Assembly (NCBI GenBank): GCA_017438525.1
Contig: JAFRVI010000043.1
Coordinates: 1 to 40,692 of the forward strand
DNA length: 40,692 bases
Direction: 5' to 3'
Source: Clostridia bacterium
GTDB taxonomy: Bacteria; Bacillota; Clostridia; Oscillospirales; RGIG8002
Below the pieces are notes generated by a model that searched no databases, was not told the origin of the DNA, and saw only the letters and a program-made list of their open reading frames with translations. A program made the position numbers and the translations under genes. Positions within the stretch are counted from its first letter, which is position 1, and each line of letters opens with the position of its first letter. Below, one piece after another: positions 1-40,692 of the stretch.

Positions 1-61
1 CAGTTTTGAACGAGATGTTTATCGTTCAGGCAAAACAACAAAACAGCGGTCATACTTGATG
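1..61. repeat. Left copy of 61-bp terminal direct repeat
   Basis: The first 61 bases are identical to bases 40632-40692. The shared block stops just after the loop of a terminator-like hairpin. Because the window carries single-copy housekeeping genes, the likely meaning is a contig closed on itself through a repeated sequence or an assembler k-mer overlap. It is less likely to be a true circular replicon. Confidence 0.95.
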
Positions 62-111
62 TATGGCCGCTGTTTTTTGTGAAGCATGGGCGGGAAACAG
101 CCGTTCAAAAC
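3..111. repeat. Symmetric hairpin element B (dispersed repeat candidate)
   Basis: A 10-bp inverted repeat (GTTTTGAACG at 3-12, CGTTCAAAAC at 102-111) lies about 45 nt on each side of a 16-bp stem hairpin centred on 58. The hairpin core contains ATACTTGATGTAT. An element with the same geometry and the same core in reverse complement lies at 40517-40624. I see no coding sense in it. It looks like a short intergenic mobile or REP-like repeat, but the family is not recognised. Confidence 0.55.
40..78 (+). terminator. Rho-independent terminator-like hairpin
   Basis: A 16-bp stem (40-55 with 61-76, one G-T pair) has a 5-nt loop and is followed by a run of T to 78. The left arm starts with four A, so it could work in both directions. 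It would end transcripts entering from the window's left side, or from the right end if the sequence is joined. Confidence 0.75.
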
Positions 112-202
112 CCGACTTATCCCTAATTTGCGCGCCCTTTACGGCAATCTCTTTTTTTACGCCGCTTTTCCGGCGGGCAAACCGAAACGCGAAAATGAAG
201 GA

Positions 203-264: not shown

Positions 265-714
265 ATGAACGAATACGCATTCATCACGCTGAGAGAAAAA
301 CCGGAGATAAAGCGAAAGGCAGCCGAATGGTTCCACGGCAAGTGGAGCGCGCCGGTCGAGGCGTACCTCGAATGCATGGGCGCCTACCTCGGCGGCGAAA
401 CGGAATACGGCTGGTATCTCTGCCTTTGCGGCGGCGAGATCGCCGGCGGGCTCGGAGTCGTTGAAAACGACTTCCACGAAAGGAAAGACCTCGCCCCCAA
501 CGTCTGCGCCGTCTATACGGAGAAGGAGCACCGCCGCCGCGGCATCGCCGGAAGACTGCTGAACTTCGCCGTTGAGGATCTGCGGTCGAAGGGCGTTTCG
601 CCGGTCTATCTCGTGACGGACCACGTCGGCTTCTACGAGCGCTACGGCTGGGAGTTCTTCTGCGCCGCGCAGTGCGACGACGGGAACGAATCGCGTGTCT
701 ATATCCACAGGTAA
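265..714 (+). CDS. GNAT family N-acetyltransferase
   Basis: A 149-residue protein of the GCN5-related acetyltransferase fold, which moves an acetyl group from acetyl-CoA to an amine. The acetyl-CoA loop is visible as HRRRGIAG (around residues 90-97), and the C-terminal YERYGWEF motif near residue 127 is typical of the fold. The substrate cannot be told from sequence. The start ATG follows AGGAG at 247-251 with a rather long spacing of 13, and a good sigma-A promoter lies just upstream. It opens an accessory stretch of unrelated small genes. No signal peptide or membrane segment is seen. Confidence 0.88.
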   Translation: MNEYAFITLREKPEIKRKAAEWFHGKWSAPVEAYLECMGAYLGGETEYGWYLCLCGGEIAGGLGVVENDFHERKDLAPNVCAVYTEKEHRRRGIAGRLLNFAVEDLRSKGVSPVYLVTDHVGFYERYGWEFFCAAQCDDGNESRVYIHR

Positions 715-39051: not shown

Positions 39052-40461
39052 ATGAAGAAGAATCTGTTAAGAATCCTCGCGGCCGTACTCGTGCTCGCCA
39101 TGGCGTTCGCGCTTGCGGCCTGCAAGAAGACGGGCGGCGGCGGAGAATCCTCCAGCTCGGGTGCCAACTTCGAGCCCGGTGAAAACACCAACGGCAACCG
39201 CTTTGTCAGTATCGACGCGGCGTCCGTCGACATCGGTACCGAAAAAGAATTCGTCGACCCCGAAGGCGAGAAATACGTCACGCCCGACTATCATTACCGT
39301 GACAAGACCATCACCTTCCTGAGCCACTGGAACGCCGAGACCCCCGACTCCGTCCATATGATCGCCTATATGGAGAAGTACGGCGGACCGAATATCAAGT
39401 TCCTCACCTATAACTACGGCGACTGCGGAATGAAGCTCCAGGCGATGGTCCTGGCGGAAAACGCCCCCGACGTCTACAAGCTCCGTATCGGCGACCTTAC
39501 CAGTCTGCTCTACGCGGACGTCTGGTCCGACGTTTCCGACAAGTTCGACTGGAACAACCGCAACTGGCGCGACCTCGCCCAGTATATGCAGTACGTCACC
39601 TACAAGGGCAAGATCCTCGCCGCTCCCGAAGTCAACGCCAACTACATGGTGTGGTTCAACAAGACCATATTCGAGGAATACGGCGTTGAAGACCCGCTCT
39701 CCCTCTGGAACAAGGGCCAGTGGACGAAGGATAACTTCGACAGCATCTGCCGCAAGCTGACCATTAAGGAAGGCGGCAACACCAGCATCTACGGCTTCGG
39801 CTTCGACCACTGCTGGTACCGCGACATCCTCGCGATGTTCGATACCAACCTCGCGGTCTTCAAGGACGGCCTCTACGTCAGCAACACCGACGATCCCAAG
39901 CTCGCCGACGCGATGAGCTACGCCACCAGGATGAACACTGTCGAGAAGGTATGGTGCGACCTCAATAAAGCGAACGCCTACTTCGCCTCCGGCAAGCTCG
40001 CGATGCTCTACTACGGCAACTGGCTGACCATGTCCGAGCCCTACCGCACGATGGCTGCGAACGGCAAGATCGACTTTGTACCGGTCCCCGACAACACCGC
40101 CAACGGTCTCGGTCCGAGGCAGGACTACTACATCGAAGGTCACGCTATCCCGATCGGCGCGAAGAACGTCAACGAAGCGAGAGCTTTCATCGAGATCTTC
40201 AACTTCTATAAGCAGACCCCCGAATACGACAAGACCTCCACGCTCGCGCAGTGCGAGATCAACGGCTGGACCTACGATCAGTTCCTCCGTATGCGCGCGC
40301 CCCGCAAGTATAAGAACCAGTACACCTGCATCGATCTGGTATCGCTCGACGAATACTTCAGCATGGCGATGAACGGCGAAAGCTGGTACACCATCAAGGA
40401 GAAGCTCGATCCGAAGCAGAACCTCGTTATCGACACCCTGAAGGAACGCATCAACGGTTAG
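39052..40461 (+). CDS. Extracellular solute-binding lipoprotein, copy 2
   Basis: A 469-residue paralogue of the protein at 37425-38843. Lipobox LAAC with Cys24, then a Gly/Ser linker. Large parts of the body are identical to copy 1 (for example TYNYGDCGMKLQAMVLAENA and EEYGVEDPLSLWNKGQWTKD). The signal peptide, the linker and the C-terminal part around 440-469 differ most; the last includes LVSLDEYFSMAMNGESWY where copy 1 has ILTDWDPAFEEAMKGESW. It has its own promoter. The codon choice is slightly more biased to C-ending codons than copy 1, which hints at higher expression. No transporter partner follows in the window. Confidence 0.88.
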   Translation: MKKNLLRILAAVLVLAMAFALAACKKTGGGGESSSSGANFEPGENTNGNRFVSIDAASVDIGTEKEFVDPEGEKYVTPDYHYRDKTITFLSHWNAETPDSVHMIAYMEKYGGPNIKFLTYNYGDCGMKLQAMVLAENAPDVYKLRIGDLTSLLYADVWSDVSDKFDWNNRNWRDLAQYMQYVTYKGKILAAPEVNANYMVWFNKTIFEEYGVEDPLSLWNKGQWTKDNFDSICRKLTIKEGGNTSIYGFGFDHCWYRDILAMFDTNLAVFKDGLYVSNTDDPKLADAMSYATRMNTVEKVWCDLNKANAYFASGKLAMLYYGNWLTMSEPYRTMAANGKIDFVPVPDNTANGLGPRQDYYIEGHAIPIGAKNVNEARAFIEIFNFYKQTPEYDKTSTLAQCEINGWTYDQFLRMRAPRKYKNQYTCIDLVSLDEYFSMAMNGESWYTIKEKLDPKQNLVIDTLKERING

Positions 40462-40516
40462 TCTTCTCAACTGATAAAGCACGGCCCTTAGGGCGTGCAA
40501 ATCAGGGATACGCCGG

Positions 40517-40624
40517 TCTTAAAAAGGATCTTTTCGCGCCGGTCTGCGTTAAAGCCGCTTGAAATACATCAAGTATTTCCGCGCGTCTTCGCCTTGCCCG
40601 ACACAAAAACCTCTCTTTTTAAGA
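40517..40624. repeat. Symmetric hairpin element A (dispersed repeat candidate)
   Basis: TCTTAAAAAG (40517-40526) and CTTTTTAAGA (40615-40624) are perfect inverted repeats, each about 45 nt from a central hairpin GAAATAC/GTATTTC centred on 40570. The core ATACATCAAGTAT is the exact reverse complement of the core of element B at 52-64, and the geometry is the same. Confidence 0.55.
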
Positions 40625-40631
40625 TGCGGAG

Positions 40632-40692
40632 CAGTTTTGAACGAGATGTTTATCGTTCAGGCAAAACAACAAAACAGCGGTCATACTTGATG
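40632..40692. repeat. Right copy of 61-bp terminal direct repeat
   Basis: Identical to bases 1-61. If the two ends are overlaid, the junction rebuilds the full terminator hairpin of element B. Confidence 0.95.

Follow-up and report, generated by a model that had tools for sequence, protein, structure and literature searches.

The two ends of the window analysed here, a stretch of 40,692 nucleotides that constitutes contig C43 of a 1.85-Mb genome in 90 contigs (G000), carry similar hairpins in opposite orientation, and the question raised by this locus is what kind of element they represent. An earlier note had described them as two elements of one geometry. The coordinates of the perfect 10-bp inverted repeats on which this description was based proved exact, 3-12/102-111 (GTTTTGAACG/CGTTCAAAAC) as well as 40517-40526/40615-40624 (TCTTAAAAAG/CTTTTTAAGA), and these are the only perfect 10-bp pairs with a spacer of 85-92 nt in the window, where the rough expectation for the whole stretch is 0.3. 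The distance of about 45 nt from repeat to hairpin holds when measured to the hairpin centre, and the shared core ATACTTGATGTAT was indeed found once per strand, at 52 (+) and 40564 (-). An arm-A covariance model, among whose rows are three sequences of the window's element type contributed by sister species and a single second-family sequence from G000, matched positions 2-111 with 90.6 bits on the plus strand (34.2 on minus) and positions 40517-40633 with 80.2 bits on the minus strand (15.1 on plus). With overlaps and strand copies of these two set aside, the next independent matches in the window reached at most 12.7 bits. The likeness of the two hairpins is far above chance.

Two half copies at the contig ends

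Instead of two elements, the window has, at 1-138 and 40490-40692, opposite halves of a single element type of about 278 bp; each half belongs to its own copy, and they appear separate because both ends of contig C43 fall within a copy. The left half of one copy (40490..40692, +) is cut by the contig end and comprises the left terminal inverted repeat (TIR) AGGGCGTGCAAATCAGGGATA (40490..40510, +), the structured hairpin arm B (40517..40624, -; R1 match 80.2 bits), which is the inverted homologue of arm A, the two-fold symmetry centre TGCGGAGCA (40625..40633) and the first 59 nt of arm A (40634..40692, +), identical to window positions 3-61. The three pairs of the TGC-NNN-GCA mini-hairpin at the centre are kept in 19 of 19 rows of alignment A2, about half of which had been found by a pattern containing the centre block. 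The right half of the second copy (1..138, +), cut by the contig start, consists of arm A (2..111, +; R1 match 90.6 bits) and the right TIR TATCCCTAATTTGCGCGCCCT (118..138, +). The 21-bp inverted match between 118-138 and 40490-40510 is real and has two mismatches, but rather than lying outside separate elements it is the TIR of the element itself.

Copies on C26, C89, C25 and C17, as well as copies in G001, G002 and G003, sister species of the same genus, match the left half in their left part. Window positions 1-140 used as query match 12 other contigs of G000 with 92-100% identity over 39-140 nt, and the identity of 100% over 114-140 nt in seven of them (C50, C52, C42, C32, C31, C17 and C34) argues for recent activity. 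The same seven contigs likewise start or stop in the repeat, and contig breaks at a repeat are expected where assembly graphs branch. The last 61 bases of the window are its first 61 (40632-40692 = 1-61).

Upstream of the left half lies a gene for an extracellular solute-binding protein (39052..40461, +; Pfam SBP_bac_8 9.9e-15), followed by the probable 5' half of a host terminator stem, AAAGCACGGCCC (40476..40487, +), as judged from 13 of 14 intact copies; none of the right flanks compared supplied a matching 3' half. The right half is followed by ACGGCAATCTC and a T-run (141..158, +), by sequence the probable 3' half of another host terminator, and by a GNAT acetyltransferase gene (265..714, +; Pfam Acetyltransf_9 1.4e-12). 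Since the right flank of the window does not pair with its left flank (duplex -5.4 kcal), the two ends probably derive from different insertion sites.

Architecture and folding

Intact copies read TIR, arm B, central mini-hairpin, arm A, TIR and were found inside contigs C25 and C89 of G000, C6 and C27 of G002, C56, C79 and C70 of G001 as well as C100 of G003, with a TIR that starts GGGCGYGCAAAT. TIRs span 20-26 bp, and with a TIR of about 26 bp, an arm of about 108 nt and a centre of 9 nt the size of the element adds up to 26+108+9+108+26 = 277, in agreement with its length of about 278 bp. Among the genus copies, 10 of 11 were measurable by script; seven had 277-279 bp, two 266-267 bp and one 304 bp, the last holding the remnant of another element inside. 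A 20-nt TIR pattern occurred 23, 28, 22 and 2 times in G000, G001, G002 and G003, respectively. Inward-facing pairs on one contig of these genomes had starts 246-284 bp apart in 12 cases, and the remaining distances were 159 (C78, shortened), 532 (G001:C30, nested) and 38 (G001:C149). Variant copies include C37, which has no arm A, and C78, in which arm B is shortened. No gene was found inside the element.

A second family in G000, F2, has other ends combined with the same centre and arm A, and families in general share their arms and differ in their TIRs. Several copies are rearranged around the arm-B hairpin. In G000:C68:3150-3255 (L032) this hairpin is inverted within an otherwise normal left half, and in G001:C30 (L081:1321-1875) an F2-type element is nested in the arm-B hairpin loop of an F1 element; G001:C19 and C100 exhibit apparent remnants at the same spot. 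The truncated F1 left ends of L284, L285 and L287 stop at or just past GGAATAC near the arm-B hairpin apex, as if breakage or insertion favoured the apex.

Arm B is homologous to arm A in inverted orientation. When reverse-complemented, the left half is 53-68% identical to the right half in 21 elements, compared with shuffled means of 47-51%, and matches to R1, the arm-A covariance model of 19 sequences, lie back to back and outward around one centre in G236, G119, G064 and G088. The earlier note had pointed to a covariance model as a check of the hairpins, and the 19 rows of A2, taken from 23 elements of which four were left out, covary strongly, with a change on both sides in 42 of 61 pairs compared with 26.3 in shuffles (0/500 shuffles). 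In the same alignment 92.2% of cells were paired versus 73.6% in shuffles, and sliding the partner by 1-3 columns reduced pairing to 40-49%; as the structure was derived from this alignment, the pairing percentages are biased in its favour, and the double changes to a lesser degree. Invariance at the TGCRNAGCAGTTTTGAAC block is partly by construction because 9 of 19 rows of alignment A1 had been selected by a pattern holding it. The structure of the element is under selection.

The strand that reads outward from the centre folds better for arm A in 49 and for arm B in 43 of 50 element centres, with an advantage of about 10-13 kcal under RNA and 4-5 kcal under DNA parameters. These centres were found with an arm-A profile, represent a limited number of families, are thus not independent and include some without a normal left half (among them L141, L100 and L102). 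Mismatch polarity on a Watson-Crick-only structure is opposite as well, with 35 G.T versus 8 A.C in arm A and 12 versus 27 in arm B. Strand folding and mismatch polarity therefore indicate that the arms carry structure on opposite strands. The earlier note's alternative of a structured RNA is a poor fit if taken as one RNA across the entire element, since the arms fold best on opposite strands.

Terminator loops as insertion sites

The flanks were compared in a set of 14 intact copies with GGGCG/GGCGG-type ends (g1, G045 and G005). Left and right flanks paired with a mean of -21.6 kcal versus -10.8 kcal for mismatched pairs (n=182), only one of which reached the true median, and 13 of the 14 copies exceeded the mismatched mean in stability, the exception being G001:C70, whose flanks (-10.6 kcal) paired no better than that mean. 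Joined across the element, the flanks form stems that are often followed by T-runs. No pairing was observed for the flanks of C89 (-6.1 kcal) and C78 (-7.0 kcal); as the left flank of C89 has its pairing partner in C50, C89 may be recombined or misassembled. Among 15 broken left ends tested, six paired best with a right end of their own genome, at -19.7 to -31.2 kcal (C89-C50, C75-C31, C68-C52, C17-C32, G002:C15-C33 and G002:C20-C34), and for C26 the own-genome partner C42 ranked second. A convincing partner was not found for the remaining ends of this set, including the left end of the window.

Bare terminators were present at orthologous sites of sister species. These were AACGCGCGC-ATTGATT-GCGCGCGTT in G000:C86, orthologous to the G002:C27 copy (96%), GCCGCC-CTTA-GGGCGGC in G002:C26, orthologous to C75/C31 (94%), and GCGCCCCTC-GATTT-GAGGGGCGC in G002:C12, orthologous to C81/C34, where other DNA lies between the gene part of the left flank and the terminator. 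In addition, CGCCGCTCC-TTAT-GGAGCGGCG in G000:C31 corresponds to the left flank only of G002:C4 (97%), and two weaker orthologous bare sites had 77% and 74%. The branch to which the window's copies belong inserts into the loops of transcription terminators. An amino-acid-composition heuristic, which gives a hint only, places the end of a forward gene left of the element in 24 of 31 copies that have the GGGCG/GGCGG end type.

The 5% quantile of mismatched flanks was passed by 11 of the 50 element centres, all of them among the 18 with GG-type ends on both sides and none among the 32 with other end types (0/32), although a fixed offset places a few genus copies (L050, L071, L076 and L086) among these 32. 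As F2, F3 and other end types are not located in terminators, target choice follows the ends and not the arms. In the comparison of insertion sites for target duplications, also raised in the earlier note, TT on both sides is compatible with a duplication of at most 2 bp, but the loops are T-rich and sister loops have diverged. Judged by eye, the flanks allow a reading as TT..TT for F1 and F2 and, in most cases, as TA..TA for F3.

Group IIC introns are associated with terminator hairpins as well, but their insertion point follows the stem and they depend on a reverse transcriptase, whereas the element type of the window inserts in the loop and no Rfam match was found on an element.

Relatives, mobilisation and known systems

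Copies beyond the window had been anticipated, and the search of genome and relatives returned many near-identical ones in G000, others in the sister genomes and more distant relatives. The search of relatives was positive in 9 genomes out of 59, and scanning GTDB genomes with a pattern returned 44 stretches, many of them outside Clostridia and judged from their sequence to be chance matches. R1 matches were present in 91 of 295 genomes and 52 of 148 genera of the host's order (E<=0.001) as well as 66 of 391 genomes and 41 of 223 genera of its class (E<=1e-6), counts that are lower bounds due to strict filters. Relatives are widespread in gut and rumen Clostridia. Length was 274-282 nt in 20 of 21 elements from ten families and 266 nt in the remaining one (mean 276.6, sd 3.0), with ends set by eye from the TIRs and deviations of +/-3 nt possible; L102 and L141, which have no normal left half, were left out of this set, and G012 is its least certain member because the centre motif is absent. 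The most distant pairs of family representatives share 48-57% identity, compared with 49% after shuffling. Single-arm forms of 159-160 nt, corresponding to one arm of 108 and two ends of 26, accounted for six copies in G468 and three in G445 among the copies examined there (15 and 13 R1 matches, respectively).

Two elements with different ends lie about 1.3 kb apart in G045 (L060:132-410 and 1441-1720), both with pairing flanks. In L115:7339-7617, L214, L224, L225 and L247 the architecture is the same and the ends, when read outward, resemble a tRNA T-arm (GGTTCG..CCC) and acceptor end; a simple pattern detected such ends in 5 of 50 element centres. No tRNA gene was found at copies of this kind in nine loci except for one tRNA-Arg in L215, away from the element.

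No mobilising enzyme was found. Among G000-G003 no inward TIR pair with a gene-sized gap was found at up to two mismatches, and no gene-sized inverted R1 pair appeared among the matches listed for six genomes. Single TIR sites were rejected as ends of an autonomous copy: in ten stretches they represent truncated or deleted copies, and at up to four mismatches no second TIR surrounds them except for a 58-bp pair in G001:C149. The 3.7 kb of G002:C2 between the orthologues of the C89 left and C50 right flanks was likewise discarded as an autonomous copy, as it holds a sigma-factor-like ORF and a repeat protein and no transposase recognisable by eye. An autonomous IS sharing the ends was thus not found in these genomes, and other strains may hold one. 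Of 24 carriers, 7 have Y1 transposase (PF01797), as do 7 of 20 genomes in which R1 found nothing at E<=0.001; no match was obtained in G001 (75% complete), G002, G003 and G045. RAYT/IS200 was dismissed as mobiliser for lack of association with the element. A resident Y1 transposase does not seem to be the mobilising enzyme. One Y1 (IS200-like) match was located at G000:C90:181-537, and among the four genus genomes only that of the window has one. Blastn of F1 against plasmids and phages and of F3 against plasmids gave no match, nor did one pattern in viral contigs (0 matches).

Many near-identical copies, presence or absence at the same terminator between sister species and the lack of a gene inside mean that the repeat behaves as non-autonomous mobile DNA, one of the options of the earlier note, although its unit is an inverted dimer of about 278 bp. 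Three accounts of its mobility were judged in the order mobilisation in trans, plain MITE and RNA-level element. The first, which we slightly favour over all others combined, is a REPIN-like transposable element, non-autonomous, built as an inverted dimer and nearly constant in size, that is mobilised in trans through recognition of its folded arms. Two homologous, self-folding arms of about 108 nt would stand head to head around the 9-nt centre with TIRs of about 26 bp outside, and a trans-acting transposase would recognise the folded arms. Because the arms fold best outward from the centre, structure resides on the two strands with the element's 3' ends, and folding on these strands, single-stranded or as a cruciform, would be the most likely signal; a single-strand step is suggested by thermodynamic asymmetry and covariation. 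Insertion in the loop of an existing hairpin would keep the terminator stem and T-run around the element and would thus be nearly harmless.

An ordinary MITE, on whose TIRs alone the DDE transposase of an IS acts and whose arms are kept for host tolerance or as subterminal transposase sites, is a possible but clearly less probable account. MITEs have been described as about 100-400 bp with terminal inverted repeats (PMC3116915). The element likewise has TIRs of 20-26 bp, in the window of 21 bp, a usual length of 277-279 bp and no coding gene, occurs in multiple copies with empty sites, has flanks that by eye could be TT..TT (F1, F2) or mostly TA..TA (F3) and combines common arms with family-specific TIRs. 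In contrast, no inward TIR pair of G000-G003 spans a gene-sized gap, the ten single-TIR stretches hold only truncated or deleted copies, no parent IS was found, and the interior of a MITE is not expected to hold length and covarying structure across families of a bacterial class, as observed here. We regard as unlikely, and as weaker still, an RNA-level element with a structured RNA encoded in either half and running outward from the centre, whether regulatory or a guide for its own mobilisation. U-G as the commonest pair at two conserved arm-A positions, the opposite mismatch polarity of the arms, the larger strand asymmetry with RNA than with DNA parameters and the T-arm-like ends of 5/50 centres are consistent with it. 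On the other hand, 40440-40692, the one stretch scanned, contained no promoter-like site, Rfam 15 gave no match in the window at gathering threshold and none on an element among the matches listed (4 loci at E<=1, 18 loci at E<=0.1), and the F1 flanks share structure but not sequence, which makes base-paired targeting unlikely. The identity of the contig ends over 61 nt might point to an assembly artefact or the terminal redundancy of a circular replicon, which is highly improbable and refuted as a full explanation by contig-internal copies in four genomes, non-complementary flanks at the window ends and the ordinary metabolic nature of the flanking genes checked.

The element is a non-autonomous transposable element, and its design is closest to REPINs. 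According to PMC3116915, REPINs are extragenic, non-autonomous inverted doublets of REPs, that is of two homologous palindromic units forming a hairpin, with a REP length of about 20-60 bp. Inverted doublets of a palindromic unit, extragenic and non-autonomous, were found here as well, but with arms of about 108 nt, long TIRs and no Y1 transposase in the carriers G001, G002, G003 and G045. The bcr repeats of the Bacillus cereus group are described in PMC3446304 as interspersed, intergenic, MITE-like and often located in UTRs, and a table of PMC2267715 gives 147 and 167 bp for bcr1, which by description resembles the 160-nt monomer form in size. From the families compared the element differs in size, symmetry, host range and target. 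No description of it was encountered in the literature searched, which lay outside subscription papers and preprints and included passages of PMC2267715, PMC3733652, PMC3446304 and PMC3116915.

As far as found, this would be an unnamed, widespread mobile-element family of gut and rumen Clostridia that breaks metagenome assemblies and sits at the 3' ends of genes. Its use of terminator loops would represent a clean "safe site" strategy, and its strict length and mirror symmetry offer a testable case of structure-recognised transposition. More tentatively, a class-wide lineage of self-folding 160-nt monomers and 277-nt inverted dimers could be copied as folded single strands by an enzyme that recognises the folded arms, with the ends setting the target and one lineage specialised on terminator hairpin loops as safe sites.

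The Rfam matches listed, all outside elements, were tRNA and tRNA-overlapping, TPP and sub-threshold Gut-1 hits. TPP riboswitches near copies were located in two genomes, at L218:1641-1746, directly after the element, and L224:2625-2736. Dozens of matches to a short coding repeat (query 1755-1835) in G000, G002 and G003 suggest many proteins of this kind; the repeat resembles a dockerin-type motif.
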